Shown here piece after piece: positions 3,917-25,311 of a DNA stretch of 44,695 bases. The stretch is from Ectocarpus siliculosus (taxonomy: Eukaryota > Sar > Phaeophyceae > Ectocarpales > Ectocarpaceae). Positions within the stretch are counted from its first letter, which is position 1. Each line of letters starts with the position of its first letter. The position numbers and the translations under genes were made by a program. The stretch spans positions 10,843 through 55,537 of the forward strand of contig FN648743.1 of NCBI GenBank assembly GCA_000310025.1, read 5' to 3'. The notes under the pieces were generated by a model that saw only the letters and a program-made list of their open reading frames with translations, searched no databases and was not told the DNA's origin.

Positions 3917-4271
3917 GATCCGGCATGCTCGGAGCACAACACCGAATACTGTCATTCATTCGTGCACAGGCAATTCGTGGCGCCATGGACTTTTTGTTTC
4001 TAAATTCAAGAACTATAAAACACTTACCGCGAACAGCTGTTCGAAAAATGTACTCTTTCGCGTTTCACTTTTTACAGCATTGCCTACCATGCTGATCCGG
4101 CACGGACGGAGCACAATACCAAATATTGTCATTCATTCGTGCACAGGCAATTCGTGGCGCCATGGACTTTTTGTTTCTGAATTCAAGAACTATAAAACAC
4201 TTACCGCGAACAGCTGTTCGAAAAATGTGCTCTTTCGCGTTTCACTTTTTACAGCATTGCCTACCATGCTG
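3917..4271. repeat. 177-bp tandem duplication
   Basis: Two adjacent copies, 3917-4093 and 4094-4271, both starting with gatccggca and ending with tgcctaccatgctg. They differ at only a few positions, mainly in the first 35 bases. The offset is exactly 177, which is divisible by three, but no convincing coding frame crosses the unit. Confidence 0.9.
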
Positions 4272-5684: not shown

Positions 5685-5711
5685 ATGAACCCAGGAGGAC
5701 CACAACGATGA
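5685..5711 (+). promoter_or_regulatory. Eight-codon upstream ORF overlapping the main start codon
   Basis: An ATG at 5685 opens an eight-codon frame (MNPGGPQR) whose TGA stop overlaps the main ATG as ATGA at 5708-5711. If the transcript starts upstream of 5685, this uORF could lower or gate translation of the secreted protein by a termination-reinitiation mechanism. The arrangement is visible in the sequence; a regulatory role is inference. Confidence 0.35.
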
Positions 5712-5830
5712 AGCTCATGACGTCAGGGACGATGGGCGTCGTGCCTTATCTTCCGATCGTCCTACTTGCACTCAGTGGAAGCCCGACGTTGGCCGGCTCG
5801 GCGTTCAGGGGCGCGAACATTCGCAACGAG
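5708..5830 (+). CDS. Exon 1: signal peptide
   Basis: The exon encodes 41 residues and ends in phase 0 before a gtattg donor. It starts MKLMTSG, continues with a hydrophobic core ([14 protein letters not shown]) and ends with small residues around TLAG/SA, a plausible signal-peptidase site near residue 30. This ATG is chosen because the upstream ATG at 5685 stops immediately and this one gives a classic secretion signal that splices in frame to exon 2. Confidence 0.8.
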
Positions 5831-8800
5831 GTATTGTGCATCGCACACTTCGACTTTTGATTCTTTGCGCAGTCAATCCTCCAAAACGTTCTCAAACCAG
5901 ATGAAACCGAAACAAATAAATTCGCCATCCAAACTTACAGTGTGCTTTGGGCGTCAGCTTTCTCCCTCTTCCTCTTTCATGACGGGAAAGCCGCGGCCAT
6001 GCCGGATAAACCATAGATACAATACAATTCATTCACCCCGAAGAAATGCAAGTGGCCTGTGTGTACAACGGTTCCTTCGTGTAATTTTTGAGTCAGTCCT
6101 CCCTCAACGCGTGGGTTGGTAGCTTCCGAATGATTTCAAATACCGAAAAGTCAATCGTTTTTGTGTGTTCAGGGCAACAACATGCTGCGGCCCGTGTTCG
6201 AATGGCAACCCATCGTTGTCCGTGACAGTTTTTCCTTTGCAGTTATATCGTAAAGGCTTCTGCATTCTGCATACCACTCGTGGTCATGTTTGGCCTCAGG
6301 TAGCCTAGGTGCAGGGGAAAAACCGTTTTGTCACCATTTTTGTGCCACATATAGGTTCCAACGCGCGCGATGGCGTTCAGCCGTTTTTTTGTCTCAGATC
6401 TAAGGTGTCGCTGGGAAAGCATTTCTTCTGTGAATCGCTGTCTTGTTCGTCGTGATAGAATTTGAACTCCGCTCGGTGTGTGCTTAGCCACTTTTGGGAG
6501 TCGAATCGAATGACAATATTGCCTCCAATGTTGAATACGTCGACGACCCACATGTACAAACTTTGTCAATTTTGACCCTCTTCTTCTGTCAACAGGCAAA
6601 CCTCTCTGAAACGGATAACATCAACTGGCGCAACCTCCAGGCCGACGGTAAGAGGACGGGGCAAAGAACGCCGACAACATGTGGTGTTTCTCGTGTCCAG
6701 TTGGTCTAAACATAGTGACAGCCATGTGCTAATGCGGAACGTGATCGATGGTGTCTTGCCCGTGTCTTCAAAAGATCTTTTGTGCCAGGAAGCGCGCACG
6801 TTTTGAGGCGGACCCGATTGATCCTGGGTACACTGACTGTTGATCCGATTTCCTCGACGCACGGGCCACTCTCTATGGTTTGGAAAACATTGTCTTTCGC
6901 AGCTGCATGTAGACCAAAAAGTAGCCACTTGGCGCTGGGCTACCTTGCCCAGGGTACAGTAGTCAATGCATAGCGCAAGCCAAGGGTGCCCTGAAGTGCT
7001 CCGGGGCCTACCTACAGTTTAGCAGACGAACACCAGCACCGTCGTGTCGGCTGCCCGCCGAAACGTCTCCTCAACTAGAATCCTTTCTTGCAGATACTTA
7101 TCCCCGGACAGGAAAGATTCAAAACCGCCCCACCGCGATGAATTTTTGCTATACACCCAAAGTTAGGGAGGATTCGATGGGATGATGTCGATGGCATTTC
7201 GGGCGCTTCGAGTTGATGTTGAAATGCAGCGTTACTGACGCCGACGGGAACTGCAAATGGCACGGATCCACATGTACGACAGCCTTATTTTTTCTGTTGT
7301 TTCTTGAAGCTACATGTACAATGCTAACCGAATTTTTTCCATTAACTGTTTACTCCGACCCTTTGTCAAGCACAATGGGTCTACCTGACGTCCCACACCC
7401 ACCCCCTTGTGGTGCGTTGGTTTTGACTTTAAACAAAAAGGTCGATCGCTCAACCTCTTCGTGTTCAAAACGAACTACACTAGATAGTTGTGCATATCGG
7501 GCAGGCCAAGAACGCAAGCGATAGAAATGTTGCAACAAAAGTGGTCAGAACTCCTGACCTGGCTTGTGTAATATTTTCTTCGTTGCTTACTATCGGTATC
7601 TATTTTGATAGCAACGGAGGGGGCATGATAGACTTGTATTTTTTTGTCCATGAGCAACAAAGGTCCATAGACCTGCGCAGTTGGAAGAGTGAAATTTCCC
7701 CAGTTAGAATTACAGCTGGACTTGTTCCTTGTTTTGCAGATACATTTGATCCGAGGTATCGCTTACTGGAGTCCGAAAATTGATTCATTCAAAGAGAGGC
7801 AACTGACGAAATTACGACCAATACCCAATGACTTCTCTTCCTGCATCAAGCAAATATGAACGCCTTGCCGCTAACTTGCGCGCGTTTTTTTCTATTCCCG
7901 ACCAGATTCGGTGTGCACTACCAGCACCGGCGATATTCCCGGGATCCAGGACAAGGATGTGTGGTACGGTTGCTTTTTCTTTTGCCTAGCTTCTGTTGCT
8001 GCAAATGTGGAGCTTCAGATTTTTGTCTTTTTTGATGGAGCAAGAAGGAGCGAGAAATAATTAGAGTCCACATGGATGGGAGGAATCCAAACGAACATCG
8101 GAATGGAACAAACGATCCGTCCTACCGGCACCAATGCACGGATCCCACCAAGACTTTGCCCACGTGCAATGATTGATATTGCCGCATCTCGCACTCAGAT
8201 CATCACGCGGGTGGACTGTTTTCGCCTGTCTACTTCCATTGCGTAAAATTCTGTCCACGGAACTAACGCACATGCACTTTTATTCCATCCTGTCCACGGT
8301 CTGCACATACATGCAGTTTGTAAGTTTGGCTGAGACATGTCACGACCCTTTTCCTTTTCCCCTGCCCAGCTGCCCGGTTACCTGTGGTCAGTGCGGGGGA
8401 TCAGGATGCTCGAGTGCCCCCGGTGGGGAAGATTCATGTTGCACGTCGGCCATCCTCGAAGCCGGCGACGAATGTGGCGAAGCGCCTTGTGTAATCGGTG
8501 GTGAGTTCATTCGCTCAACAACTTATTGTATACATATGAGGTTCGAGAAACGAAATGGATGAGGAAATGGTGAATCGTTTTTGTCCTTTCTATAGTATGT
8601 ATGTCGTTCTCAATGTTTTCTGGGATGTACTTCGCTAACCCTTACTTCCCCGGTGATTTGGTAACGATTCAATGTCTGTCTCTGGTTGCGATTATACTAC
8701 CGGTGATGGTGGAAAATCGGCGCGCGACTCTATCTGACTATTCTGCCATTTTTGTCAAAACTTTATAACGTTTCAGAATCGGCTCCAACCCCTGCAGCGA

Positions 8801-11800
8801 CCACCCCTACACCCGTGGCTGCACCTACCCCGGTGAGACCTACGAAAGTGTTTCTCGGCAGTGCATGGTGGCAATTTCTCGCCCTAGCCATGGGATCTTC
8901 GTTGAAGTACATGCATATTCGCATTGGTGTGTAGGCATCCGAGAAGATCTATTGCGTACCAACATCAACGTATATGTTCAACACGTATTTAAAGAATGTG
9001 TTCACCCTTTCGCCCATTGGTTTCCCCTCTACACGGGCTGCAGTTATTTGAATTCCGCCACAACGTGTGAAGTCGCGTCGTGTTGGTGGGGGGGTGTTCA
9101 TTGCTGATTTTACTCGCGGTTTGAAGTCTGGTCGCGATGCGAAAACTTCGCGCAACGTCCTGAGGCCAATCAACGTCTTCCTGGTGTTCCGCGGCCCCTG
9201 GGCCCAAGTCTTGACAAGATCTCGACAGGACAACCTTTCGTTTTTCTTTATCTGCTCCGCGTAGTATTTCTGTAGTGAAGTACACAAGTCACCATGCTGG
9301 CTGCATGTCATTATACAACTTATGAAACATCAATAGCTCCTTCTTCGACCGCTAATATTCGTGAGCAAAGAATGAAGCCACTCAGAATAAAGAGGTTTGC
9401 TTGCATCGCGGTTTGGTTGAGTGCTCGTCGGCTTGATAAGGGCGTTATGGCCACGGGATTGAATGGTCATCAAACCTGATAGCTTAACTGATGCGTATGT
9501 TTCTGCAAGCCAATGAATTGACTGATGTACCGCGTGCATCAAGACCATATCTCGTAATTCCGCGGCGTTCAAACAGCCCCGTTGGCGTCTTTGAAGCGTA
9601 AACAAACGGTGGACGCTGTAGACATTGTGCTGTATTGCAAGCGTACGTGGCTTACTTTGTTTTTCTCAATGTCGGCTGTTCATGTTAGAGAGGTCTTCAT
9701 GTACGTCATTCACGACTTTCAATCCTCAAATGGGATGAATTTCGCTCTTACCGGTTTCGTCCAACGGGCCATCTTATTTCTCAGCAATGACCTGATAAAG
9801 GCTTGGTTATGCACTCACGTAACCGAACGGCAACAATAGTGTACGCCATGTGTTCACCTAGAGCGGACAACGAAACAGGACGCGACCAGTGTGTGCATCA
9901 ACACAAAGGGTTGAAGTTGTTATCCTTTCCTGTTGCGCAGGTCGCGCCAGTGACAACGACGATGTGCACCGACGACACAGAGGGCGTACTCAGCTTTGAC
10001 GGAGTGGTATGCTGCTCGCTCGGGTGTGATGGACAGTGCGGCGGGCCAGGATGCGGCTCGTTCGGGTCTGGTGCTGGGCTCGGCTCCGAATCTTGCTGCA
10101 TCGGAGCAATCATGGATTCCGGCATTACATGCGGCGGAGAGCAGGGAGCCCCTTGCATCGTTGAGACCGAAGAAGGTAAATCGGGACGTCGCATCAACCC
10201 ACTAGGGGTACCCGGCTAGGCCGTTCGAGAGGGGTTTTTCCCCACAGGCCACGCAGTCAAAAGTTGTAGAACTGTTTGGCGTGATGTTGCGGAATTACCA
10301 TTCGATACTTCACGGAACAACTTCAAATTTAAAGAGGGAAGAGGATTGCGTAAACGCGGCAAACGTACAAGAATAGCACGAGATTGATGCATGGAGTTGT
10401 AATGGATACCGGTTATGTATCTTCACATGAATAGTCCGACGGTTACACCATGAACAAATGTGCGCCGTCTGCTTAAGTTGTTTGGCTCGGGGTATATTTC
10501 TTCCATTCAAGTGTAATTCAACCGCCAGAAGTTGATTTTAAAGCGGAAAAGGCTGAAAAGCCTACAATAGGAAAAGAGGTTGTGCGAAAATTTAAATTTT
10601 GAAATTCACGTCGCCAAAGGCGGTAGAAACCAGCACTGAAAAAAAATGTAACGGCCAGTCTCACGTTGATTTAGAGGTGTTGTTTTGTTTGTGCGAAGCA
10701 ACCCCATACATCTCAAATGTCCTTCCTTTTAGGCGCTTATATCGACAAAGTGTGAGACCCCCACCCGAAACAATAAAATTGTATCCCTTTTTGTCCTCCT
10801 TTTTTGCCATACTGCGGAAATAACACCACCACGCAAAAGTCTCGGCCCCTACAACGCCGGCCCCTGCCACGCCGACCCCTGCCACGCCGGCCCCTGCTAC
10901 GCCGGCCCCTGAAGGTGTGGGAGGTGTGGTTCTTGTCTGCCGCTTTTCATGTCTTGGCATCGGATGTATCTAACAGACCCGACACGTGTCTCCCGTACAT
11001 GACTTCTGTCTCAACACGGCGTCTGAAACCACGGCACATGTAGGTGAACGTGCCTCGTCCTGCAGTTGCGACCGGCATCTGAAGTTTTGAACACCAATGT
11101 TATTTCATTATCCAGATGCTTCAAAAACTCTTGAGCGAAGATACTCTGTGGCGAAGACGTGGACTGCCAATGCCGAATACTGTTGTAACTTCAGCACATG
11201 GGTTTGCCTCTGAGGATGAGGAATACCTGACAACATGGCGATTTCCCCGCCCTTGACACTGCTGTACCAGATACCGTATACCGTTTTGCGTGTGATGTGA
11301 ATGTCCTGTTCATTCCTGTATCACATGCCTGAACGATGTGCTGTGCCCAGATCAGGATCGCTGATAACGATTGCTCTGTTACGGGAGAAGCGCCTTGCAT
11401 TGTGACGAGTAAGCCGATTGGAATGAAGCATGTGGGAACGTCGAACAGACTCACACTCTGATAACGTCTTTCAATGTGGTAGGGTATGGTGACATCTCTC
11501 TGGCCCTGTCTCCGCAAATATGTGCCCTTGGCTTTCCCCACCGCCCTTGGAAAGGTATTTCGAACGCCTCATCTTGATATACTCCATTTTCGATAAACGT
11601 TTTGAATGGAAGAAATTCAACATCTGGTATGAAACGGCCTTCGTGGCGAGTCCTAAGCAGCTGCATCATACCTCTAGGCTCTCACCCACAAATTGTCAGA
11701 GCCCTACCTGAAAGAAGTGTTGAGCTTAATGTCCGTTCCTCTACTCTAACGAATGTATTCCGTCAACGTCCAATTCCCACACGTGCTTGTCAAATATGAC

Positions 11801-14800
11801 ACCTATGTACGGACCCGTCCGCCGGCACGCAACAGGCCCGGCTCCTGCTACGCCGGCCCCTGCTACGCTGGCCCCTACAAGTGAAGGTGTGGCTCTTGTC
11901 TGCCGCTTGTCGCCATATTTTATGTCTTGGGCATCTATGTATCTCAGACCGTCTTGTGTTTATGACTTGTGCCTTAATAGCGGCTGCTTGCAACCACGGC
12001 ACATGTATGTGAACGTGCCTCGTTCTACAGGTGCGACCAAACTTGGGAATATGATACGTCTTTATAATTTCCATGATACTTCGAATACTCTGTTGCGAAG
12101 ACGTGAACTTTCTCTTTACGTTACGGAAAATACCGTCGTTACTCTGGAACTGTGTGTTAACGCACATGGGTTCGCCACTGAAGATGAGAAATTCCGGACT
12201 ACATGGCGACCTGCCCCCGCCCTTCACCCTGCTGTACCGTTTAGCGTGTCCTGTGAAGGTCCTGTTGTCCTGCTATCACATGCCTGAACGATGTGCTTGG
12301 CATAGCAACATTGTTTTCTCGAAGTGACCGACCATTAATTTCTTAATTTCGCTTATCGTTCAACCGCTCACTTCAACGTCAAATAGACGAGATGTGCGAG
12401 GGCGGAATTGTCGGAGTCCAGGCTCTTGACGTTTGTTGCGCCCTGAGCTGCGGTTCTTGCGGAGGTGTCGGATGCAGTTCCAGGGACGGTGGAGAAGACA
12501 ACTGCTGTGGTGCCCAAATCAGGATCGCTGATAACGATTGCTCTGTTACGGGAGAAGCACCTTGCATTGTGACGAGTAAGCCGATTAGAATAAGGCTTGT
12601 GTGAACGTCGAAGCGACAAACTCACACTCTTGATAACGTTTTGCGAAACGGTAGACTTGCGTCGAATCTCTTGGGCATTACGCTGCAAAATATGTGCCCT
12701 TCTCTTCCTAACCTACACCTGGTATGATAACTGGCCTTCGAGGCAAGTGTCCTAAGCAACTGACGCATCATACCTCCAGGCGCTCAACAACAAATTGCTA
12801 CAGTAGACCCACCCGAATCAAGTCAAGTTGAACGCGTAACGTCCCTCTACTTAACGAATGTATTCGGTCCACAGTTCCTTTCCACATTTGCAATACTGCA
12901 CAAACACGGCACAATGTACGGACCTTATCGCCGACACGCTATAGGCCCGGTCCCCGCTACGCCGGCCCCTGCTACGCCGGCCCCTGTTACGTCGGCCTCT
13001 GCTACGCTTGCCCCTACACGTGAAGGTGTGGTTCTTGTCTGCCAACACATTTCATGTCTCGGGCATCGGACGTATTTAGACCGAAACACGTCTTTTCTGT
13101 TATGACTTTATGTCTCAATGACGGCTGCTTGAAACCACGGCACATGCATGGGAACGTGCCTTGTCCTGCAGTTGCGACCGGCATCTGAACTTGCGAACAC
13201 GAAATATTTTTTTCTTCCACGATACTCCGAATACTCTGTGGCAAAGACGGTAACTATTTCTATACGGAAAATATATTGATTATTATGCGTTAATGCACAT
13301 GAGTTCGTCTCTGAAGATAAGAAATTCCGGACTACAAGTCGACGTGCCCCCGCCCTTCACACGACCAACCATTTAGCGTGTGAATGTCCTGTTCATCATA
13401 TGTCTGAACGATGTGCTTGGCATTGCAAATTGTTTTGTTTCAAGGTTATCAACCACTAATGTCTTGATTTCGCCTATCGTTCAACCGCTCACGTCAACGT
13501 ATATAACAGCGGGGACTTGCGAGGGCGGAATTGTCGGCGTCCAGGCTCTTGATGTTTGCTGCGCCCTGAGCTGCGATTCTTGCGGAGGTGTCGGGTGCAG
13601 TTCCAGGGACGGTGGAGAAGACAACTGCTGTGGTGCCCAAATCAGGATCGCTGATCGCGATTGCTCTGTTACGGGAGAAGCGCCTTGCATTGTGACGAGT
13701 AAGCCGATTGGAATGAAGCATGTGGGAACGTCGAAGCGACAAACTCACACTCTGATAACGTTTTGCGAAACGGTAGACTTGCGTCGAATCTCCTGGGCCC
13801 TCAGCCGTTTGCCCTTGCCTTCCCAACCGCGTTGGACAGGTAATTCGAACGCTTTATTTATAATATACTCCATTTTCAATTCAAACGTACCGATAGAACG
13901 AGATTCAACATCTGGTATGAAACTAACCCTTACCCTCTGGTATGAAACGCCTTTCTAGGCGAGTTCTAAGCAACTGAAGTATCATTCCTTTAGGCGCTCT
14001 TTACAAACTGTAGACCTCCATCCGAGACTATGACAGTCGAACGTTTAATTTCCGTCCCTCTACTTCAACGAGAGTACTCCATCCACAGCTCTCTTCCACA
14101 ATTAATTGCAATACTTATGACACTTTTTACGGATCTGTCTTTCAACACGCAACAGGCCCGACGCCGGCCCCTGCTACGCCGGCCCCTACCCCCGAACGTG
14201 AGGTTCTTCGTTGCCGCCTGTTGCGATATACTAAAGCGATATACTAAATCATCTGCATCTCATGTATCGCAAAATGTGTGCTCATGTCTTCGGTAGACAA
14301 ACGTTGTCGGCCTGCAGCTGGGACTGGCACCTGATTTCCACAACAGTGTGACCTGATATTGCTTTTTCAATATGATGTCATAGAGCTTGTGTGGCGAAGA
14401 CATGTCGTCTGCGTCTCAATGAAATAGTGTCGTTAGGTTTAGGGTTAGGGTGAGCTGCATCCGCCGTCCACACCGTATGGTAAGGCTGTTTTGCGAATCT
14501 TATTATCTCGTTTTGTCCCATAACCGATCGATGATAGCTCGATAAATATAGATATCCCACGCCGATGTCAGGTACCACGTAGTGCGCATCTTACATTGAT
14601 GACGCGTTGTGGGAATGCTTTCGCCTGAAGTCCTCGCGTATGTTGACCGCTGTGATATCAAACGGTGTCTTTATCCAAACCGAACAGTGTCGATGTGCGA
14701 CGGCGGGATTGTCGGGATCCAGACGAGCGACGTATGCTGCTCCGCAAGCTGCGGGTCTTGCGGAGGCACCGGGTGCTCTGGCAGGGACGGTGGCTCAGGT

Positions 14801-17800
14801 GCCTGCTGTGGTGGCGGAGTCAGGGCCTCCGGTCGCTACTGCTCTGTTACGGGAGAAGCACCTTGCATGACCGGTGAGCCTGTTGGAAGTGACCCAAGTT
14901 TGAACATCAAAAGTGACGAACTAACACTGGGTAACGTTAGTCGGTCGTTCACAACGTTGGGTCTGAAACTCTATATTGTAGCTATTTATGCTTGCTCCGA
15001 TACGCTTCCCCGATCTCGAAGAAGAAATTTTAGGCAATATGATGTTAGCAATTTACCTTCAAAAACTGACCAAAGTTTATTACGGTGGGCAGGATTAACC
15101 CCAGTGAACCGTGAATCATGCATGTTATGCAGCTGCGATTCAGGCACATTAAGCTGTAGCAGTGTCTGACCCCATCGAAAACAGGCAGCGCTATCCGAAG
15201 CCATATTTCAGTTTTGTTTCGTCGACATGGTGTGTTGAATGTCAACGATACTACGAACGGGCGCTTGCTCCATTCGTGAAACAGGCGCGGCCCCTACTCC
15301 GGAACCTACACCGGCCCCTACGCCGCCCCCTACGGTTGAAGGTAAACGGTGGCCGTTGCAGTGTTGCGCCATGAAACTTCAGCCTGTCTCCAGGACAAGA
15401 TATCTCGTCGACGTCGACCGCGTCCACCGCACATGACTCGATACTCTGTATATAGGTCAGCATATACTTTCTACCAACACGTAATGGTGCTGTCGAAAGT
15501 GAGCTCTACCTGAAACAACTTCACCCACGATTACGCCAGGTCTCAGGTAGAGATTGACCAATGGATGACGTCTGGCCTTCTTTGTACTTGAAGTTATTCA
15601 TGCAAGTGAATAATGCGGCTGTGATTTTTTACGCCTGCATCCAAACCGAACAGTTCCGATGTGCGACGGAGGTATCGTCGGCATCCAGGCGAGCGACGTA
15701 TGCTGCTCGGCAAGCTGTGGGTCTTGCGCAGGCACCGGGTGCTCTGGTAGGGACGGTGGCTCAGGTGCCTGCTGTGGTGGCGGAGTCCAGGCCTCCGGTC
15801 GCTACTGCTCTGTTACGGGAGAAGCACCTTGCATGACCGGTGAGCCTGTAGGCACGAGCGACGCAAGTGTGAATACCAAAAGTGACAAACTCACGTCAGG
15901 TTTTCTCATTCTCTACTTGGACGGCTAGGTAGGATTTACCTCAAGTGAACCATGCATGTTCGTGCAGCTGCTTTATTATCTTTCATTACGCCCATGATGG
16001 GAAAGGAGTGTCAGACTACATCGGAACACACACACATGAAGGCACCAGAGGGTCAGACCCCATCGGAAACAGGCAACGCTGCCGGAAGCCCAATTCAGCT
16101 TCTGTGCTTCAAAATCGTGCGTTGAACGTCCTCTTCCTGTAACACTGTACCAACACTAATATCAACGGGCGCTTGCACCATTCGTGTAACAGGCCCGGCC
16201 CCTACTCCGGAGCCCACGCCGGCCCCTACGCCGCCCCCTACCGTTGAAGGTAAGCGGTGGTTGTTGGAGCCTTGGCGCCAAAACACTGAGCATGTCTCCA
16301 AGATCAGATATCTTGGCGACCTGACCCGCGTCCATCGTACATGACTTAATTGTTGTGGCTGAACAAAATTGGACAGGCTTGGTGGTACAGCATGTTACAT
16401 GTCGCGCCTATATCGAAGCTATCCTGTGTAGAGTCAGCACATATTGGGTTCTTCTGCAGGACAGACATGACTGTCGGCAATTTTCCCCGCGTTTGGCGCT
16501 GTCACGTGACCGACTTTCCATTCTTCCAACACGTTACGGTGTCGCCGAAAATAAATTCTAAACTGAAATTTCACCGACGACTACTCCAGGTTCCAGCTAG
16601 AGCGGGAGTGACTCATTGATGACGTCTTACCGTGTCTCTAAAGTTGAACACATCCCTTCCAAGGAAATAATGCGGCTGTGATTTGAATGACGTCGTTATC
16701 CAAACCAAACAGTTCCGATGTGCGACGGAGGAATTGTCGGCATCCAGACGAGCGACGTATGCTGCTCCGCAAGCTGTGGGTCTTGCGGAGGTACCGGGTG
16801 CTCTAGCAGGGACGGTGGCTCAGGTGCCTGCTGTGGTGGCGGAGTCAGGGCCTCCGGTCGCTACTGCTCTGTTACGGGAGAAGCACCTTGCATGACCGGT
16901 GAGCCCGTAGGCACGATCGACGCAAGTTTGAACATCGAAGGGGACGAACTCACACATTGTAGTAACTTAGACGTTTCTTCCTTCGACTTTGAGCCTGTCC
17001 CTTTCATAGCTAGGTACGAGTTACCCCCAGTGAACCATGCAAGTTTGTGGAGCTTAATTGTCGTCTTTCTTCAGGCGCACGACTTTCATCAGGCACACGA
17101 TAACACAGCAGTGTCAGACCCCATCGGGAACACGCAGCGATATCGGAAGCCTTACTTCTGGTTATTTTTGTCGGCGTACAGTAGTGCGTTAAACATTTCC
17201 TTCCTTGCAACGGTGCGGCGACAAAACCATTAACGTGATCTTGCACCATTCGTGAAACAGGCGCGGCCCCTACCCCTGAACCAACGCCGGCCCCTACGCC
17301 GCCCCCTACTGTTGAAGGTAAGCGGTGGCCGCTAAAGCCTTGCGCCAAAACAGTCTAGCATGCCTTCAGGATCAGATATCTTGGATGATAACAGGTCAGA
17401 GCATGTTTTCTTGCCTCTGCAGGAGACACTCCGACGCTTTGACTGATCCGCGTATTCCCCCCGCTCTTTGTGTGTCACGTCAATGTGTGTGACTGTGCAT
17501 TGCTCGGCTGTCGTCTCTTACCGATGGCTATGACGAGGGCATGGTGAGCCACAAAATGAACTCGTACTAACACAACTGAATTACTACGACAGGTCCCACG
17601 TTTGTATTGGATATTTGAATTTGTCTGGTTGGCATCCTTCAGTTGAAATCACCTCCGTAAAGTTCGACCGCTGCGTGAAATCGAACAGTTCCTATGTGCG
17701 ACGGCGGGATTGTCGGCATTCAGACGAGCGACGTATGCTGCTCCACAAGCTGCGGGTCTTGCGGAGGTACCGGGTGCTCCGGCAGGGACGGTGGCTCAGG

Positions 17801-20800
17801 TGCCTGCTGTGGTGGCGGAGTCAGGGCCTCCGGTCGCTACTGCTCTGTTACGGGAGAAGCGCCCTGCATGACCGGTGAGCCTGCAGGCACGAACGATGAT
17901 GGTTCGGAAGTCAACGAGAGAAATCCACAGGTAACTCCCTTTTCCTCCATCTTTGCCATCTTGATCGTTTCGTACCTCGATATCTTCATATCTGGTTATC
18001 CTTCCTTCAACAACCTTCTCCCCTCTTTGAGAGAGGGATGTCGACCTGTCGCAACTTGATATTTGTACGCCAAATTTAAAAACGTTAGAAAGTTAAAGTT
18101 TTAACCTGGTACAGTAGCAGTAGTGTAGCATTATGATTAAAAACACATCTATCGTGCAGCTGCAATTCTCGTCTTCCATACAGCTTGATTAAAAATCGAT
18201 GTCAGACACCATCGAAAACAGACACAACCGGAAGCCTGACTTCCGGTTCCATGCGTCGACGTATTGAACGACCTCCTGCAACACTCCGCCAACAATCCTA
18301 CGAACGGATGCTTGCACAATATGTAAAACAGGGTCGGCCCCTACCCCGGTCCCTACGCCGGCCCCTACCCCGCCACCTACAGTTGAAGGTAAGCTGTGTT
18401 GCGTTGCCGCCTTGCCCTAAAATCTAAGGTACCTGAGTGCGTGTGGTGACGCAGCTTTTATGTCCTGATGATCATTAGAAAAGTAGAACGACGCGATCGT
18501 GCACTTTGAAAAGAGGTCATTCTACACGGATACCTGTGTCATTTCCGTCTGCAGGACATACTTTGACTTGTCAACTGATCCGCAAAAGACTGTGCACACA
18601 TGTTTCGCACTGTCGCGTCTTGATAATCTGTGAGGCGCGTTAAAAATTTAACTTTCCCGGAATGACGTCATCCCCAAGTGAACGATTGACCATCATGTTG
18701 TCTGGTCGATGAAGTTTGGTCGGCTTCGTCGTCTCTCTGGAACCCACCCAACATAAGCTGTCTTGACGTGAATTTTTTGGCGTCTTCATCCAACAAAACA
18801 GTCCCGAAGTGCGACGGCGGAATTGTCGGCATCCAGGCGAGCGATGTATGCTGCTCCTTGAGCTGTGAATCTTGCGGAGGTTCCGGGTGCAGTGGCAGGG
18901 ACGGTGGCGAAGACGAGTGCTGTGGTGGCGGAGTGAGGGCGTCCGGTCGCGATTGCTCTGTTACGGGAGAAGCGCCTTGCATCGTGACGAGTAAGCTATT
19001 TGGAATACGCTTGTGGGAACGTTGCAGGGACAAACTCACACCCTGATAACGTTCTTTGAAAGGGTAGAGATGCGTCGAATCTATTGGGCCTCCGGTCCCT
19101 GCAAACATGTGCCCTTCTCTTCCCTTACCGCCTTTGGATAGGTTTTTGGGCCCTCGGTCGCTACAAATATTCGCCCTTCTCTTCCCTTTACCGCCATTTC
19201 GGACGCTTTATTTTTGGTACACTTCATTTTCGATACAAATATCGATAGGAAGAGATCCAACTCCTGGTATGAAACTGCCTTCGAGGCGAGTCCTACGCAA
19301 CTTAAACATCCATTCTCCAGACGCCCATCTACAAGTTGTTAGACGCCCACCCGCAACAAGTAAAGTTGCGCTTCAAGACCGTTCCTCTACTAAAACGGAT
19401 GATTTCCTTCAAACGTCCTTTACCACAAATAAATGCAATACTGCGCAAACATAACACACTATCTACACATCCCGTTTACACGTAACAGGTCCGGAACCTT
19501 CGACGCCGGCCCCCACGCCAGCCCCTACACGTGCAGGTGCGGTTCTTGCTGCGATTTGTCGCCATGAGTCATGTCTTGGGCATCGGAAGTATCGCAGACC
19601 GACACTTTGGTTTTCTTCATGACTGCTGTCTCAACAACGTTTTTTCGAAACCACGACACATGAATGTGAAGTTGCCTCGTTCATAAGGTGCGACCGGCAT
19701 GTAAAGATTTGAACACGAGATGTGTTTTACCATCCATGATACACTCCGGATACTCTGTGGGAGAAGATGTGGACTGCCTATATACGGAGTACTGTAGCAA
19801 CTTCAATACCGTCAGGTGACTTGCCCCCGCTCTTAACACTCTTAACACTGCTGTACCAGTCAGCGTGTCCTGGAATGTCCGTATCGTACGTCCGAACGAT
19901 GTGCATGGCATAGCACCATTGTTTTCTCAAGGTGACCATAAATTTTGTTTGGCTTTTGTCCGCGTACTTCAACGTAAAACAGCGGGGACGTGCGATGGCG
20001 GAATTGTCGGCGTCCAGGCTAGTGATGTTTGCTGCGCCTTGAGCTGTGGTTCTTGCGGAGGTGACGGGTGCAGTGACAGGGACGGTGGAGAAGACAACTG
20101 CTGTGGTGTCGAAATCAGGACGGCTAATCTCGATTGCTCTGTTACGGGAGAAGCCCCGTGCATCGTGACGAGTAAGTTGATTGGAATGAAGCTTCCAGTA
20201 ACGTCGTAGGGACGAACTCACACTCTCATAACTTATTTCGAAACGATAAAATTGCGTCAAATCTGAGTGGTTCCTGCACATATTTGCCCTTCCCTTTCTT
20301 AACCGTATTCGTCTTCTCTTCCCTAACCGCCTTTGGATAGATATTTCGAACGCTTCATTTTTTGCCGCACTTTATTAATGATAGGACCTGGTGTAAAACT
20401 CTCTTCGAGGCGAGTCCTACGCAACTTGAACATCCTTTTCCAGGCCCCCATCGACAAATTGTGAGACTCCCACCCAAAACAAGTGAAGTTAAAACGCTCA
20501 ACGACCGTTCCTCTACCACAACTAATTCATGCCGTCCAACGCCTATTTTCCTCATTTCCTCATATGGACTACTGCGCAAATATCCATTATGTGAAAAATA
20601 TTTCGCCAACACGCAACAGGTCCGGAACCTTCAACGCCGGCCCCCGCTACGCCGGCCCCCGCTACGCCGGCCCCCACGCCGGCCCCGTCACGTGCAGGTG
20701 CGGTTCTTGCTGCGACTTGTCGCCATAGTCATGTCTTGGGCATCGGATGTATCACAGACCGACACTTTGGTCTTCTGTTCATGACTGCTGTCTCAACAAC

Positions 20801-23800
20801 GTTTTTTCGAAACCACAACACATGAATGTGAAGTTGCCTCGTTCATAAGGTGCGACCGGTATCTTAAATTTTGTACACGATATGTTTTTTACTATCCATG
20901 ATACACTCCGGATACTCTGTGGAGATGTATGTGGACTGCCTACATACGGAGTACTGTAGCAACTTGAACACGTTTCGTCAATGCGCATTGGTTTGCCCTT
21001 GAAGATGAGGAATACCTGACTACATGCACATACCTGGTTTTGATTATGACTTGCCCCCACTTTTAACACTTGCCCCCCCTTGTACCAGTGCTGTACTGTC
21101 TAGCGTGTCCTGGAAGGTCCTGTTCATTCCTGTATAGTACGTCTGAACGATGTGCATGGCATAGCAACATTGTTTTCTCAAGGTGACCGACCATTAATTT
21201 CCTCTGGCTTTCTTCCGCTCCCTCCATCGTAAAACAGCGGGGACGTGCGAGGGCGGAATTGTCGGTGTCCAGGCTAGTAATGTTTGCTGCGCCTTGAGCT
21301 GCGGTTCTTGCGGAGGTGACGGGTGNNNNNNNNNNNNNNNNNNNNNNNNNNNNNNNNNNNNNNNNNNNNNNNNNNNNNNNNNNNNNNNNNNNNNNNNNNN
21401 NNNNNNNNNNNNNNNNNNNNNNNNNCAGGTGCGGTTCTTGCTGCGACTTGTCGCCATAGTCATGTCTTGGGCATCGGATGTATCACAGACCGACACTTTG
21501 GTCTTCTGTTCATGACTGCTGTCTCAACAACGTTTTTTCGAAACCACAACACATGAATGTGAAGTTGCCTCGTTCATAAGGTGCGACCGGTATCTTAAAT
21601 TTTGTACACGATATGTTTTTTACTATCCATGATACACTCCGGATACTCTGTGGAGAAGATGTGGACTGCCTACATACGGAGTACTGTAGCAACTTGAACA
21701 CGTTTCGTCAATGCGCATTGGTTTGCCCTTGAAGATGAGGAATACCTGACTACATGCACATACCTGGTTTTGATTATGACTTGCCCCCACTTTTAACAAT
21801 TGCCCCCCCTCGTAACACTGCTGTACCAGTTAGCGTGTCCTGGAAGGTCCTGTTCATTCCTGTATAGTACGTCTGAACGATGTGCATGGCATAGCAACAT
21901 TGTTTTCTCAAGGTGACCGACCATTAATTTCGTCTGGCTTTCTTCCGCTCCCTCCATCGTAAAACAGCGGGGACGTGCGAGGGCGGAATTGTCGGTGTCC
22001 AGGCTAGTAATGTTTGCTGCGCCTTGAGCTGCGGTTCTTGCGGAGGTGACGGGTGCAGTGACAGGGACGGTGGAGAAGACAACTGCTGTGGTGTCGAAAT
22101 CAGGACCGCTAATCTCGATTGCTCTGTTACGGGAGAAGCGCCTTGCATCGTGACGAGTAAGTTGATTGGAATGAAGCTTCCAGTAACGTCGTAGGGACGA
22201 ACTCACACTCTCATAACTTATTTCGAAACGATAAAATTGCGTCAAATCTGAGTGTGCACATATTTGCCCTTCTCTTTCTTAACCGTATTCGCCCTTCTCT
22301 TCCCTAACCGCCTTTGGATAGATTCATTTTTGGCGAACTTTATTATTGATAGGACCAGGTATAAAACTGCCTTCGAGGCGAGTCCTACCCAACTTAAACA
22401 TCCTTTTCCAGGCCCCCATCGACAAATTGTGAGACTCCCACCCGAAACAAGTAAAGTTAAAATGCTTTCGACCGTTCCTCTACCACAGCTTATGCATGCC
22501 ATCAAACGCCTATTTTCACATTTGCACTACTGCGCAAATATCCATAATGTACAAACTTTTTTGCCAACACGTAACAGGTCCGGAACCTTCAACGCCGGCC
22601 CCTGCTACGCCGGCCCCCGCTACGCCGTCCCCTGCTACCCCGGCCCCCGCTACGCCGTCCCCTGCTACGCCGGCCCCCCGCTACGACGGCCCCCACGCCG
22701 GCTCCTTCACGTGCAGGTGCGGTTCTTGCTGCGACTTGTCGCCATAGTCATGTCTTGGGCATCGGATGTATCACAGACCGACACTTTGGTCTTCTGTTCA
22801 TGACTGCTGTCTCAACAACGTTTTTTCGAAACCACAACACATGAATGTGAAGTTGCCTCGTTCATAAGGTGCGACCGGTATCTAAAAAATTGTACACGAT
22901 ATGTTTTTTACCATCCATGATACACTCCGGATACTCTGTGGAAAAGATGTGGACTGCCTATATACGGAGTACTGTAGCAACTTGAACACGTTTCGTCAAT
23001 GCGCATTGGTTTGCCTTTGAAGATGAGGAATACCTGACTACATGTACATACCTCGTTTTGATTATGACTTATCCCCACTCTTAACACTGCTGTACCAGTT
23101 AGCGTGTCCTGGAATGTCCTGTTCATTCCTGTATCGTACGTCTGAACGATGTGCATGGCATAGCAACATTTTTTTCTCAAGGTGACCGACCATTAATTTC
23201 GTCTGGCTTTCTTCCGCTCCCTCCAACGTAAAACAGCGGGGACGTGCGAGGGCGGAATTGTCGGTGTCCAGGCTAGTAATGTTTGCTGCGCCTTGAGCTG
23301 TGGTTCTTGCGGAGGTGACGGGTGCAGTGACAGGGACGGTGGAGAAGACAACTGCTGTGGTGTCGAAATCAGGACGGCTAATCTCGATTGCTCTGTTACG
23401 GGAGAAGCCCCGTGCATCGTGACGAGTAAGTTGATTGGAATGAAGCTTCCAGTAACGTCGTAGGGACGAACTCACACTCTCATAACTTATTTCGAAACGA
23501 TAAAATTGCGTCCAATCTGAGTGGTTCCTGCACATATTTGCCCTTCCCTTTCTTAACCGTATTTGTCTTCTCTTCCCTAACCGCCTTTGGATAGATATTT
23601 CGAACGCTTCATTTTTTGGCGAACTTTATTATTGATATGACCTGGTATAAAACTGCCTTCGAGGCGAGTCCCACGCAACTTGAACATCCTTTTCCAGGCC
23701 CCCATCGACAAATTGTGAGACTCCCACCCGAAAGAAGTAAAGTTAAAATGCTTTCGACCGTTCCTCTACCACAACTTATGCATGCCATCAAACGCCTATT

Positions 23801-25311
23801 TTCACATTTGCACTACTGCGCAAATATCCATAATGTACAAACTTTTGGCCAACACGTAACAGGTCCGGAACCTTCAACGCCGGCCCCTGCTACGCCGGCC
23901 CCCGCTACGCCGTCCCCTGCTACGCCGTCCCCTGCTACGCCGGCCCCCGGTACGCCGTCCCCTGCTACGCCGGCCCCCGCTACGCCGGCCCCCGCTACGC
24001 CGGCCCCCACGCCGGCTCCTTCACGTGCAGGTGCGGTTCTTGCTGCGACTTGTCGCCATTAGTCATGTCTTGGGCATCGGATGTATCACAGACCGACACT
24101 TTGGTCTTCTGTTCATGACTGCTGTCTCAACAACGTTTTTTCGAAACCACAACACATGAATGTGAAGTTGCCTCATTCATAAGGTGCGACCGGTATCTAA
24201 AAATTTGTACACGATATGTTTTTTACCATCCATGGTACACTCCGGATACTCTGTGGAGAAGATGTGGACTGCCTACATACGGAGTACTGTAGCAACTTGA
24301 ACACGTTTCGTCAATGCGCATTGGTTTGCCTTTGAAGATGAGGAATACCTGACTACATGTACATACCTCGTTTTGATTATGACTTATCCCCACTCTTAAC
24401 ACTGCTGTACCAGTTAGCGTGTCCTGGAAGGTCCTGTTCATTCCTGTATCGTACGTCTGAACGATGTGCATGGCATAGCAACATTTTTTTCTCAAGGTGA
24501 CCGACCATTAATTTCGTCTGGCTTTCTTCCGCTCCCTCCAACGTAAAACAGCGGGGACGTGCGAGGGCGGAATTGTCGGTGTCCAGGCTAGTAATGTTTG
24601 CTGCGCCTTGAGCTGTGGTTCTTGCGGAGGTGACGGGTGCAGTGACAGGGACGGTGGAGAAGACAACTGCTGTGGTGTCGAAATCAGGACCGCTAATCTC
24701 GATTGCTCTGATACGGGAGAAGCGCCTTGCATCGTGACGAGTAAGTTGATTGGAATGAAGCTTGTGGTAGGATCGATGCGAACAATTCATTCATTACTGG
24801 TGATTCAAAAGTGTGCTTCCCGAACCTTGGGGTGGTGTGTCGAGCGGTTTAAATTTATCTCTAACGTGCTGCATTAATACTGAAAATCCCAAACGGCCCG
24901 CCACCAGCTTCTTACAACATGTCTCGTTTCTTGCACCCGCGATTCTCTTCTTTCAAGCACCTGTGACACAGCAGTGTGAGACATCCACCCGAAAATACAG
25001 CACGATCGAAAGCCTTACTCCATATACTTGTATCAAATTTGCAAGGCAAACGTCCTCATCGAAATTCTACGCCAAAATGATTGCGTTCGAACGATTGGAT
25101 CATTTTCGAAACAGGCCCCGCCCCTACCCCGGCCCCTTCGACTACGGTCACCACGACGGCCCCTCCGACCACGGTCACCACGACGGCCCCTCCTACGATG
25201 GTCACCACGACCGCTCCTCCTACGACGGTCACCACGACGGCCCCTCCTACGATGGTCACCACGACCGCCCCTCCTACGCCGGCCCCTGTTGGTGGTCGTG
25301 GGGGTCGTTGA
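5708..25311 (+). CDS. Multi-exon gene for a secreted multidomain protein of repeated 10-Cys modules and Thr/Pro/Ala-rich linkers
   Basis: About 30 GT-AG exons join in one frame to encode roughly 1,350 residues. The order is a signal peptide, a short N-terminal segment, 14 readable 10-cysteine modules alternating with Thr/Pro/Ala linkers, and a VTTTAPP-repeat tail ending in TGA. The module core is C-x-GGI-x-G-[IV]Q-x-x-[DN]VCC-x3-C-x-x-C-x-G-x-GC, then CC, C and APC. No transmembrane helix, GPI signal or catalytic motif is visible, so an extracellular matrix, cell-wall or adhesion role with O-glycosylated linkers and disulfide-bonded modules is inference. Exons from exon 4 onward are almost all phase 1-1. 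The model breaks in two places: an assembly gap in the eleventh module, and a one-base frameshift in the linker at 22578-22716. I recall similar modules in stramenopile secreted proteins but cannot name a family. The function is unknown. Confidence 0.82.
6596..6647 (+). CDS. Exon 2: N-terminal spacer
   Basis: A 52-nt exon bounded by a pyrimidine-rich acceptor (tgtcaacag) and a gtaaga donor, entering in phase 0 and leaving in phase 1. It encodes [17 protein letters not shown], polar and with one N-x-S sequon (NLS). It bridges the signal peptide and the first Cys module. Intron 1 is 765 bp. Confidence 0.65.
7906..7963 (+). CDS. Exon 3: first part of Cys module 1
   Basis: A 58-nt exon after a pyrimidine-rich acceptor ending accag. 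It completes the phase-1 codon and encodes [18 protein letters not shown] plus the first two bases of the next Cys codon. This is the N-terminal third of the module (first Cys, the GIQ turn, DVC). The following intron splits the VCC pair, unlike every later module. Confidence 0.75.
8370..8500 (+). CDS. Exon 4: remainder of Cys module 1
   Basis: The acceptor ctgcccag joins phase 2 to phase 2, giving [15 protein letters not shown] and, further on, SCC, C and APCVIG. With exon 3 this restores ten cysteines. I place the end at the strong gtgagt donor at 8501; a gtggtg three bases upstream would give the same phase. It leaves in phase 1, the phase used by almost all later exons. Confidence 0.8.
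8777..8832 (+). CDS. Exon 5: linker 1 (Thr/Pro/Ala-rich)
   Basis: It follows a tttcag acceptor and encodes [19 protein letters not shown] before a gtgaga donor. It enters in phase 1 and leaves in phase 0. Its composition suggests an extended, O-glycosylated spacer. It is less regular than the 15-bp-repeat linkers downstream. Confidence 0.7.
9941..10175 (+). CDS. Exon 6: Cys module 2 (divergent)
   Basis: A 235-nt exon from acceptor tgcgcag to donor gtaaat, phase 0 in and phase 1 out. The ten-cysteine spacing is kept ([27 protein letters not shown]), with extra Gly/Ser residues between the GC and CC pairs. Unlike module 1 it is carried on a single exon. It is clearly older than and distinct from the downstream array. 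Confidence 0.8.
10840..10914 (+). CDS. Exon 7: linker 2
   Basis: A 75-nt phase 1-1 exon starting after acaaaag-type acceptor sequence (acgcaaaag) and ending GAAG before gtgtgg. It consists of about four copies of a 15-bp unit encoding PATPA with an initial VSAP. Repeat number varies among linkers, as expected of a coding minisatellite. Confidence 0.7.
11338..11411 (+). pseudogene. Relic of a Cys module (3' third only)
   Basis: The sequence matches the 3' third of lineage-B module exons (from the CC...IRIADNDC part through EAPCIVT and the gtaag donor). It is joined directly to intron sequence (cctgaacgatgtgct) that normally lies about 80-120 bp upstream of the exon. The acceptor, first eight cysteines and most of the exon are deleted. 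The flanking linkers are both phase 1-1, so skipping the relic keeps the frame. Confidence 0.75.
11836..11886 (+). CDS. Exon: linker 3
   Basis: A 51-nt phase 1-1 exon between a gcaacag acceptor and a gtgtgg donor, with two PATPA-type repeats and a TSEG end. With the relic module skipped it should be spliced straight to linker 2, giving a double-length spacer. Confidence 0.65.
12387..12575 (+). CDS. Exon: Cys module 3 (lineage B)
   Basis: A 189-nt phase 1-1 exon with acceptor aaatag and donor gtaag after GTGACGA. Diagnostic residues are [15 protein letters not shown] and AQIRIADND, ending APCIVT. It starts DEMCEG instead of the AGTC seen in most B copies. All ten cysteines are present. Confidence 0.85.
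12945..13025 (+). CDS. Exon: linker 4
   Basis: An 81-nt phase 1-1 exon with acceptor gctatag and donor gtgtgg. It holds four 15-bp units with substitutions (one unit reads VTSAS), so it is older than the perfect repeats in the later linkers. Confidence 0.7.
13510..13698 (+). CDS. Exon: Cys module 4 (lineage B)
   Basis: A 189-nt phase 1-1 exon with acceptor tataacag. It shares GVQALDVCC and AQIRIAD with module 3, and differs by SCDSCGG and ADRDC. The intron just downstream matches the intron after the relic module closely, which marks module 4 and the relic as close relatives. Confidence 0.87.
14156..14197 (+). CDS. Exon: linker 5
   Basis: The shortest linker, 42 nt and phase 1-1, with acceptor gcaacag and donor gtgagg. 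It encodes [13 protein letters not shown]. It marks the junction from lineage B modules (3, 4) to lineage A modules (5-8). Confidence 0.6.
14433..14451. repeat. Short telomere-like TTAGGG tract inside an intron
   Basis: Two and a half degenerate-to-perfect TTAGGG units in the intron between linker 5 and module 5. It resembles the longer tract near 28.7 kb. Confidence 0.6.
14688..14873 (+). CDS. Exon: Cys module 5 (lineage A)
   Basis: A 186-nt phase 1-1 exon with acceptor cgaacag and a gtgagc donor after ATGACCG. Lineage A marks are [23 protein letters not shown] and [11 protein letters not shown], ending APCMT. It is one codon shorter than lineage B. Confidence 0.87.
15285..15341 (+). CDS. 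Exon: linker 6
   Basis: A 57-nt phase 1-1 exon encoding [18 protein letters not shown], with acceptor gaaacag and donor gtaaac. It is the founder type of the lineage A linkers. It lacks the Ala-Thr alternation of the B linkers. Confidence 0.7.
15654..15839 (+). CDS. Exon: Cys module 6 (lineage A)
   Basis: A 186-nt exon. It differs from module 5 by [16 protein letters not shown] (Gly to Ala beside the sixth Cys) and GGGVQASGR. The acceptor context ccaaaccgaacag is shared with module 5. Confidence 0.87.
16193..16249 (+). CDS. Exon: linker 7
   Basis: A 57-nt phase 1-1 exon with acceptor tgtaacag and donor gtaagc. It encodes [18 protein letters not shown], nearly the same as linkers 6 and 8. 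Confidence 0.7.
16713..16898 (+). CDS. Exon: Cys module 7 (lineage A)
   Basis: A 186-nt exon very close to module 5, with CSSRDGG in place of CSGRDGG. The donor is gtgagc and the acceptor context is ccaaaccaaacag. Confidence 0.87.
17261..17317 (+). CDS. Exon: linker 8
   Basis: A 57-nt phase 1-1 exon with acceptor gaaacag and donor gtaagc. It encodes [18 protein letters not shown]. Confidence 0.7.
17689..17874 (+). CDS. Exon: Cys module 8 (lineage A)
   Basis: A 186-nt exon and the last pure lineage A copy, marked by STSCGSC. Its upstream intron differs from those of modules 5-7 (acceptor context gaaatcgaacag). Confidence 0.87.
18332..18388 (+). CDS. Exon: linker 9
   Basis: A 57-nt phase 1-1 exon, acceptor taaaacag and donor gtaagc, reading [18 protein letters not shown] after the split first codon. 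It is lineage A in type although it precedes the hybrid module 9. Confidence 0.7.
18802..18990 (+). CDS. Exon: Cys module 9 (A/B hybrid)
   Basis: A 189-nt phase 1-1 exon. The first part ([22 protein letters not shown]) and GGGVRASGR are lineage A. GGEDECC and the end CIVT with the gtaag donor are lineage B. The intron downstream is of B type. It looks like a product of unequal crossing-over or gene conversion between the two lineages. Confidence 0.87.
19489..19536 (+). CDS. Exon: linker 10
   Basis: A 48-nt phase 1-1 exon with acceptor cgtaacag and donor gtgcgg, reading [15 protein letters not shown] after the split first codon. It is the first of the PEPSTPAP-type linkers, which continue through linker 14 and expand stepwise in repeat number. 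Confidence 0.7.
19983..20171 (+). CDS. Exon: Cys module 10 (lineage B, recent array)
   Basis: A 189-nt exon with acceptor taaaacag. Marks are [21 protein letters not shown] and [11 protein letters not shown]. It keeps the Asp of DVCC, which becomes Asn in modules 11-14, so it is probably the oldest member of the terminal array. Confidence 0.87.
20620..20697 (+). CDS. Exon: linker 11
   Basis: A 78-nt phase 1-1 exon with acceptor gcaacag and donor gtgcgg. It encodes a PEPSTPAP start followed by repeated AP(A)TPAP units and an SRAG end. Confidence 0.7.
21238..21325 (+). CDS. Exon fragment: Cys module 11, cut by gap
   Basis: The first 88 nt of a lineage B module ([21 protein letters not shown]) run into a 100-N gap. 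The rest of the exon, the next intron and nearly all of linker 12 are missing; only cag before a gtgcgg donor is seen at 21426. The upstream half is identical in type to modules 12-14. Confidence 0.8.
21326..21425. other. Assembly gap (100 N)
   Basis: The flanks are a module exon on the left and a linker exon end on the right. In neighbouring units these points lie about 620-630 bp apart, so the round 100 N is a placeholder and roughly half a kilobase more sequence is absent. Confidence 0.9.
21968..22156 (+). CDS. Exon: Cys module 12 (lineage B, recent array)
   Basis: A complete 189-nt phase 1-1 exon with ASNVCC and [11 protein letters not shown]. The 500 bp upstream, including intron, is nearly identical to the sequence upstream of module 11. 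Confidence 0.87.
22578..22716 (+). CDS. Exon: linker 13 with +1 frameshift
   Basis: The exon encodes a PEPSTPAP start and alternating PATPAP/PATPSP units up to 22673. There a run of six C replaces the five C found in equivalent units. The 139-nt length leaves one extra base, so the exon ends in phase 2 instead of phase 1 and the next module would be read out of frame. It is either a real inactivating mutation or a homopolymer error. The unit just after it also reads gacgg where others read gccgg. Confidence 0.75.
23237..23425 (+). CDS. Exon: Cys module 13 (lineage B, recent array)
   Basis: A 189-nt exon almost identical to module 12 at nucleotide level, including acceptor context cgtaaaacag and the gtaagttg donor. 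It uses the ccccgtgc variant in the EAPC codons, as module 10 does. Confidence 0.87.
23863..24030 (+). CDS. Exon: linker 14 (longest A/T/P linker)
   Basis: A 168-nt phase 1-1 exon with about nine PATPAP/PATPSP units and an SRAG end. It keeps five-C runs throughout and stays in frame, so it is the intact reference for linker 13. The ordered substitutions (one unit reads PGTPS) suggest repeat-number growth by slippage. Confidence 0.75.
24552..24740 (+). CDS. Exon: Cys module 14 (lineage B, last)
   Basis: The last module, with ASNVCC, TANLDC and a Val to Asp change giving CSDTGEAPC. The upstream intron is nearly identical to that of module 13. The downstream intron diverges from the array about 30 bp past the donor, which marks the right-hand end of the amplified region. 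Confidence 0.87.
25115..25311 (+). CDS. Terminal exon: VTTTAPP repeat tail and stop
   Basis: The exon enters in phase 1 after acceptor cgaaacag. It reads PAPTPAPST, then five copies of a 27-bp unit encoding T-[TM]-VTTTAPP, then [11 protein letters not shown] and TGA. A Thr-dense tail of this kind is a typical mucin-like O-glycosylation region. The hydrophilic Gly/Arg C terminus argues against a GPI anchor or a membrane span. Confidence 0.82.
25140..25277. repeat. 27-bp coding minisatellite
   Basis: Five tandem units around the core ggtcaccacgacggcccct, alternating acgacggtc and acgatggtc variants, inside the terminal exon. Confidence 0.85.

Follow-up and report, generated by a model that had tools for sequence, protein, structure and literature searches.

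A brown-algal gene assembled from class 1-1 exons for a ten-cysteine module, with a proposed role in the cell wall

Introduction

The locus described here raises the question of how far a gene outside the animals can be built from symmetric exons that each carry one extracellular module, and what such a gene is for. In animals, EGF and kringle domains are examples of extracellular modules spread by class 1-1 exon shuffling. A 2021 review by Patthy describes exon-shuffled modular proteins as restricted to animals and asks both why this is so and why the modules are of class 1-1 (PMC8001218). The window analysed in this work comprises 44,695 nucleotides of the Ectocarpus siliculosus genome (C207:10843-55537; assembly of 189 Mb in 492 contigs). 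An initial annotation had read it as containing a 20-kb gene made of symmetric exons that can gain and lose whole modules in frame.

Results

Architecture of the gene

On the plus strand the gene reads from an ATG at 5708 to a TGA at 25311 as 31 exons with about 3.9 kb of coding sequence (summed exon lengths). The chain opens with a signal-peptide-like exon and a short exon 2, continues with 14 Cys modules and linkers rich in Pro, Thr and Ala, and closes with a Thr/Pro-rich last exon (Table 1). The chain was rebuilt from splice sites that we specified. Linker ends were picked with the phase known, so that the count of linker phases is no independent test; several linker donors are weak (GTGTGG, GTGCGG), and alternatives 6 nt upstream, found by eye, preserve the phase. 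Evidence that is independent of the splice choices is provided by dN/dS ratios and by the fall in sequence identity beyond the borders of the module exons, both given below. A short possible exon at 7740 was discarded after visual inspection: it would break the phase, and exon 2 joins the first part of module 1 directly. Exons 1 and 2 also find support in comparison, as related sequences with the same exon ends are present at other loci. Exon 1 was judged signal-peptide-like by eye, its sequence is conserved at other loci, and it matches once only within contig C207. From the sequence of this chain we infer one continuous mRNA.

Table 1. Exons and related features of the gene in the window (M, module; L, linker; phases given as in-out; 3n, length divisible by three).
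Feature	Position	Strand	Description	Basis or remark
Exon 1	5708..5830	+	start codon and signal-peptide-like N-terminus, phase-0 end	with upstream sequence conserved in C229, C303, C417, C204, C472
Exon 2	6596..6647	+	short segment near the N-terminus, 0-1	related exon in C303, C417, C204, C472; not cleanly recovered in C229
M1	7906..8500	+	split at CC pair by phase-2 intron (7906-7963, 8370-8500)	exon chain
L1	8777..8832	+	1-0	exon chain
M2	9941..10175	+	divergent, 0-1, 235 bp	exon chain
L2	10840..10914	+	1-1	exon chain
Relic	11339..11401	+	roughly the final third of a type-B module, 5' part absent; preceding AG phase 0 (by eye)	
L3	11836..11886	+	1-1	exon chain
M3	12387..12575	+	type B1, 1-1	exon chain
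L4	12945..13025	+	1-1	exon chain
M4	13510..13698	+	type B1, 1-1	exon chain
L5	14156..14197	+	1-1	exon chain
M5	14688..14873	+	type A, 1-1	exon chain
L6	15285..15341	+	1-1	exon chain
M6	15654..15839	+	type A, 1-1	exon chain
L7	16193..16249	+	1-1	exon chain
M7	16713..16898	+	type A, 1-1	exon chain
L8	17261..17317	+	1-1	exon chain
M8	17689..17874	+	type A, 1-1	exon chain
L9	18332..18388	+	1-1	exon chain
M9	18802..18990	+	type A', 1-1	downstream intron resembles those of C229_e and B units
L10	19489..19536	+	1-1	exon chain
M10	19983..20171	+	type B2, 1-1	exon chain
L11	20620..20697	+	1-1	exon chain
M11	21238..21325	+	cut by assembly gap 21326-21425	exon chain
M12	21968..22156	+	type B2, 1-1	exon chain
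L13	22578..22716	+	139 nt, +1 frameshift in C run	exon chain
M13	23237..23425	+	type B2, 3n	exon chain
L14	23863..24030	+	168 nt, 3n	exon chain
M14	24552..24740	+	type B2, 3n	exon chain
Last exon	25115..25311	+	Thr/Pro-rich mucin-like tail, ends GGRGGR and stop	

From L2 to M14, 22 of the 23 complete exons have a length divisible by three and fit phase 1-1, and each complete module exon from M3 to M14 has two bases ahead of its first full codon and one base after its last. In the chain translation M13, L14 and M14 come out as 2-2, because L13 shifts the frame before them. Compared with the pattern seen in its siblings, this linker has an extra C, which may be a sequence error; its inclusion breaks the frame and its skipping does not. 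All 25 module exons in a set of 11 from the window and 14 from paralogues, drawn up without M1, M2, M11, C472 and the first C204 copy with its stop, are multiples of three with AG and GTRAG borders. Among 38 full-length module hits at six other loci a donor-like site lay within the scanned stretch in 35, the first such site being in phase 1 in every case (35/35); on the acceptor side the nearest AG fits phase 1 in 30 of 37 and the next AG does so in six of the remaining seven.

Exon borders coincide with module borders throughout the window gene except in M1, which has one internal intron and accordingly shows phases 1-2 and 2-1; the phases of L1 and M2 are 1-0 and 0-1. Taken whole, M1 is still 1-1, and so is L1 together with M2. 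The relic retains the donor of a type-B module, and L2 and L3 on either side can be spliced together with the relic left out. Only 28 of the approximately 62 residues of M11 precede the 100-N gap, so that 13 modules are fully readable. Taken as a whole, what the initial annotation had observed is therefore confirmed: Cys modules and linkers do sit on separate exons of the rebuilt chain, and the 14 modules and the relic that it had listed are all present, M11 in part. Its statement that nearly every exon from the first Cys module onwards is of phase 1-1 holds from L2 to M14 and was too wide for M1, L1 and M2.

Some other modules (L012 near 8195; L026; L027) are apparently interrupted by an intron close to the CC pair just as M1 is (window 7906-8500), and the amplified modules have no intron at this place. 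Many further matches in the genome begin at query residue 19-20 or so, as expected if these modules share the internal intron of M1.

The ten-cysteine module

The module comprises about 60 residues with ten cysteines in the pattern C..., CC, C, CGGxGC, CC, C, APC, and its exons measure 186-189 bp with the exception of the longer M2. None of the 14 modules matches Pfam at E up to 1, CBM1 (PF00734) and WSC (PF01822) included. A single NCBIfam match (E 0.034) and three PHROGs matches (E 0.24-0.98), each involving one of the 14 members, were dismissed as chance level, and the best PDB match (E 4) is no credible relative. In viral contigs and bacterial and archaeal genomes no relative was confirmed at E 1e-3 by scans that reach only close relatives, and no description of the module appeared among the search results from the openly licensed PMC literature. 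The earlier remark that the module cannot be assigned to a named family thus stands for Pfam, NCBIfam, PHROGs and PDB. AlphaFold, run on 11 window modules, returned a mean pLDDT of 44 and no usable model. The module has few aromatic residues, and the usual carbohydrate-binding modules are richer in them.

Within the genome the module is frequent. Three module queries gave at least 111, at least 144 and at least 55 matches at E 0.001, the three sets overlapping, and a second array with 25 full-length modules (E below 1e-15) is located at C4:5.400-5.439 Mb (L022-L025, C4:5399500-5439100, minus strand). An open frame of 1814 amino acids at C8 turned out to be an N gap and was discarded.

Type-A exons are under purifying selection overall. 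When M5-M8 of the window were compared with the type-A modules of C229, C303, C204 and C417, all 36 between-gene pairs gave dS values of 0.33-0.73, dN values of 0.04-0.10 and dN/dS ratios of 0.09-0.23, and these modules are therefore regarded as coding and constrained. The signal is weaker for type B, for which the ratios of window modules against C229_f range from 0.16 (M3) to 0.89 (M12) in comparisons that hold only 3-7.5 synonymous changes. In ungapped comparisons of type-A pairs, identity amounts to 85-95% up to the acceptor; 10-20 bases before it the value is about 45-55%, and beyond that about 25-40% in the window; on the donor side it declines over approximately 20-40 bases. This confinement of identity fits translated, constrained exons.

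Related loci with different numbers of modules

Loci that share exon 1 differ in their number of modules. The 14 modules of the window compare with six at C229, four at C204, of which the first carries an in-frame stop, three at C303 and a single degenerate one at C472. C417 and C212 have one module each and are both cut by contig ends; exon 1 was not seen at C212. Some of the near-alike loci C303, C204, C417 and C212 may be haplotypes or assembly duplicates. The C229 modules follow the order A, A, A, A, A', B, which is that of M5-M10 in the window, where extra B units are present on both sides. M3 and M4 group with C229_f (support 97/99) and not with M10-M14. In M12-M14 the exons are 98-99% identical and the 250-bp upstream flanks 96-99.6% identical, from which it follows that whole units were duplicated recently. 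Likewise, about 2 kb of terminal units (21426-23448 versus 22714-24763) is 94.6% identical over 2071 bp including the introns, which indicates a recent duplication bounded by introns. The number of 15-bp units varies in several linkers.

The near-identical terminal units of the initial annotation are thus real in the assembly, and its interpretation finds support in these units and in the counts of 14, 6, 4 and 3 modules among exon-1 paralogues as far as in-frame gain and loss of modules is concerned. It had overlooked the frameshift, the assembly gap, the older modules that are alike in their exons and diverged in their introns, and the genome-wide spread of the module, including its company of wall domains.

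The tails of the window gene and of its C229 paralogue also differ. At C229 (C229:33000-51281; L019, L001, L002 and L021 joined) a mucin-like tail of several hundred residues with TTPAP/SVGG repeats is found at position 14002 of the joined sequence and ends in GGRGGRGP, versus a tail of about 65 residues in the window gene.

Similar exons between dissimilar introns

Type-A exons form one clade per gene, with support of 97/94 for the window and 98/97 for C229. At 4-fold sites, 30/198 differences were counted within the type-A exons of the window and 9/185 within those of C229, compared with 169/460 between window and C229, 127/460 between window and C303/C204 and 119/432 between C229 and C303/C204. 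The introns do not follow this pattern. In seven of 12 within-gene module pairs (4/6 in the window, 3/6 in C229) both flanking introns are less than 55% identical, shuffled controls lying at 41-49%, and the exons of these same pairs are 91-96% identical. The intron upstream of C229_b aligns with a score of 62 to that of C204_b and with scores of 27-34 to those of its own siblings (maximum of 300 shuffles, 27), and the C229_b exon is 98.4% identical to that of C229_c. The intron upstream of W_M8 likewise reaches a score of 48 with C204_b and of 19-25 with its siblings, the maximum of 300 shuffles again being 27. There are counter-cases: W_M6/M7 and C229_c/d share their introns too, C229_b/c share the downstream intron, and since the type-A introns of C303/C204 are still 61-91% alike the discordance is not general.

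Where exons are alike and introns have diverged, as in the window and C229, the similarity of the copies does not simply date their duplication. The comparison points to a homogenisation at the scale of the exon that would act besides unit duplication in these two genes, and gene conversion over the exon would be its simplest cause.

Neighbours of the module elsewhere in the genome

WSC domains were searched by scoring 150 of 244 candidates, which yielded at least 102 hits. At least eight of 66 module clusters have a WSC exon on the same strand within 6 kb, compared with 0.17 WSC clusters expected under uniform placement, and none of the 66 has one on the opposite strand (150/244 candidates scored); within 3 kb the same-strand count is at least six of 66. 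At C21 the two domains are fused in one open frame of 172 residues that runs from a WSC match into a module, and at C8 a module, a linker and, as judged by eye, an apparent WSC start occupy one open frame. One of 18 CBM1 hits adjoins modules (C11). Four of 16 Beta_helix hits (C26, C8, C14, C475), again as judged by eye, share the strand of modules that lie upstream of them at a distance of up to about 10 kb. The beta-helix at C26 matches Pfam Beta_helix at 3e-17, and when compared with PDB at E up to 0.01 it retrieves four chains, all of them poly-mannuronate C5-epimerases (E 0.002-0.004). PMC8307928 names WSC proteins among the wall proteins of brown algae and describes C5-epimerases as large families.

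The contig of the window itself, C207, has no CBM1 hit listed, no WSC hit among the 150/244 candidates scored and no PF13229 Beta_helix hit among 26/26 candidates scored, and a wall role of the window gene is accordingly one by association.

A WSC exon is also seen at C4:5398523, about 2 kb downstream of the 25-module C4 array and on the same strand. The region C11:2171000-2190900 (minus strand; L014, L030) contains two kinds of 10-Cys modules together with Pro/Thr-rich stretches, WSC and CBM1.

Discussion

We consider it probable that the gene codes for a secreted protein with a scaffold or binding role in the wall, and that it arose by duplication and shuffling of class 1-1 exons; the wall function is proposed on the basis of domain company and the signal-peptide-like start. 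The product would be a multivalent protein of the cell wall (extracellular matrix) without a catalytic domain, in which a signal peptide is followed by disulfide-rich 10-Cys modules spaced by Pro/Thr/Ala linkers, probably O-glycosylated, and by a mucin-like tail. The modules may bind or cross-link wall polysaccharide. The placing of modules and linkers on different 1-1 exons means that whole units could be added or removed in frame by unequal recombination in introns, and that a damaged exon such as the relic, possibly also L13, could be skipped in splicing with the frame kept. Short-tract gene conversion would keep the module exons of one gene alike while the introns drift.

Several other explanations have to be weighed against this proposal. 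A reading of the array as a tandem repeat that is decaying or does not code, or as several small genes, with its open frames as a leftover, appears very improbable to us: the frameshift in L13, the part-module relic, the in-frame stop in the first C204 module, the degenerate C472 copy and type-B ratios of up to 0.89 against C229_f would suit such decay, but the low dN/dS of type A in 36/36 between-gene pairs, the intact borders and 3n lengths of 25/25 module exons (11 window, 14 paralogue), the drop of identity just outside the exons and the single match of exon 1 in its contig would not. Hardly more probable is a variable molecule for pathogen or self recognition that owes its diversity to module number and exon skipping, as proposed for the ROCO and NB-TPR receptors of brown algae. 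Module numbers do differ among paralogues, symmetric exons do allow skipping, and phase-2 LRR exon shuffling with splice variants is described for brown algae in PMC11378527; against recognition speak the homogenisation of type-A exons within genes, their overall dN/dS well below 1 and the wall domains with which the module keeps company elsewhere.

Two further alternatives, each unlikely and yet to be rated somewhat above the foregoing, concern parts of the evidence. Dense tandem repeats are prone to mis-assembly, and the near-identical terminal units M10-M14 might in part be an artefact of this kind, given the 100-N gap inside the array, the 98.4% identical stretches that flank it and the position of the gene on a 55.5-kb contig; however, the copies differ synonymously (four synonymous and no replacement changes between M12 and M13) and in linker length, and comparable arrays are present at other loci. 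The discordance of exons and introns, on the other hand, might reflect selective constraint at synonymous positions or a very rapid turnover of introns instead of gene conversion. It is compatible with this that type-A exons are conserved between genes as well, that there is little discordance in C303/C204 and that Ectocarpus introns are rich in transposable elements, as noted in PMC12477816. Constraint or turnover would leave two observations aside, namely that synonymous similarity is gene-specific, with 4-fold differences of 0.05-0.15 within the window and C229 and of 0.28-0.37 between genes, and that some introns are more alike between genes than among siblings. Gene conversion therefore remains our preferred reading for these two genes.

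The window gene combines symmetric exon shuffling as found in brown algae with putatively extracellular class 1-1 modules of the animal pattern. As in animal class 1-1 proteins, one disulfide-rich module is present per exon with phase-1 introns on both sides, and the module has multiplied inside single genes and is found joined to a different domain (WSC, C21), though not in the window gene; unlike these proteins, the gene comes from a non-animal and its module matches no family searched. Cys-rich repeats are likewise reported from brown algae for the EsV-1-7 / IMMEDIATE UPRIGHT family. The EsV-1-7 motif, with its spaced Cys/Cys/Cys/His, requires a His, whereas the module consensus is without His. 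WSC wall proteins and mannuronan C5-epimerases are approached in that the module elsewhere adjoins or is fused to WSC and lies upstream of an epimerase-like beta-helix; in contrast to them, C207 has no WSC (150/244 scored) or Beta_helix hit listed. Symmetric repeat exons and changes in copy number are shared with the LRR exons of brown-algal ROCO genes and the TPR exons of NB-TPR genes. The ROCO LRR exons, characterized in PMC11378527 as 72-bp exons of phase 2 in candidate immune receptors with positively selected sites, differ from the module exons, which are 186-189 bp long, of phase 1 and without Pfam match, and the window gene has a signal-peptide-like start and a low overall type-A dN/dS. 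Shuffling of symmetric phase-2 LRR exons in brown algae is thus already known from that source; new are the exon-1 paralogues with differing module numbers, the constraint on type A, the signs of exon-scale homogenisation and an unmatched module beside wall domains.

More tentatively, and at somewhat less than even probability, a brown-alga-like lineage may independently have evolved matrix proteins in the style of animals, from a private disulfide-rich module that became mobile as a class 1-1 exon, grew into long arrays and was brought beside WSC, CBM1 and alginate-epimerase domains, its copies in some genes being held uniform by conversion confined to exons. If so, the number of modules would be a means of adjusting wall mechanics that changes fast and keeps the frame, at the level of the genome and perhaps also of splicing. 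A complex multicellular lineage outside the animals with secreted Cys modules on phase-1 exons would make Patthy's question testable by comparison, and a module that is absent from the searched libraries and has more than 100 genome matches would help to annotate wall proteins and alginate-modifying enzymes.

The surroundings of the gene hold three further features. Upstream, an open frame at 3918-4274 of the window (plus strand) consists of a unit of about 59 residues in two tandem copies. On the minus strand an open frame at 31687-32238, next to a run of Ns (32501-33266), contains an IQUB-like domain (E 1.5e-37). A Helitron-like element lies some 12 kb downstream of the gene, at 37664-42581 on the plus strand; its adjacent open frames match DUF6570, Helitron_like_N and PIF1 helicase.
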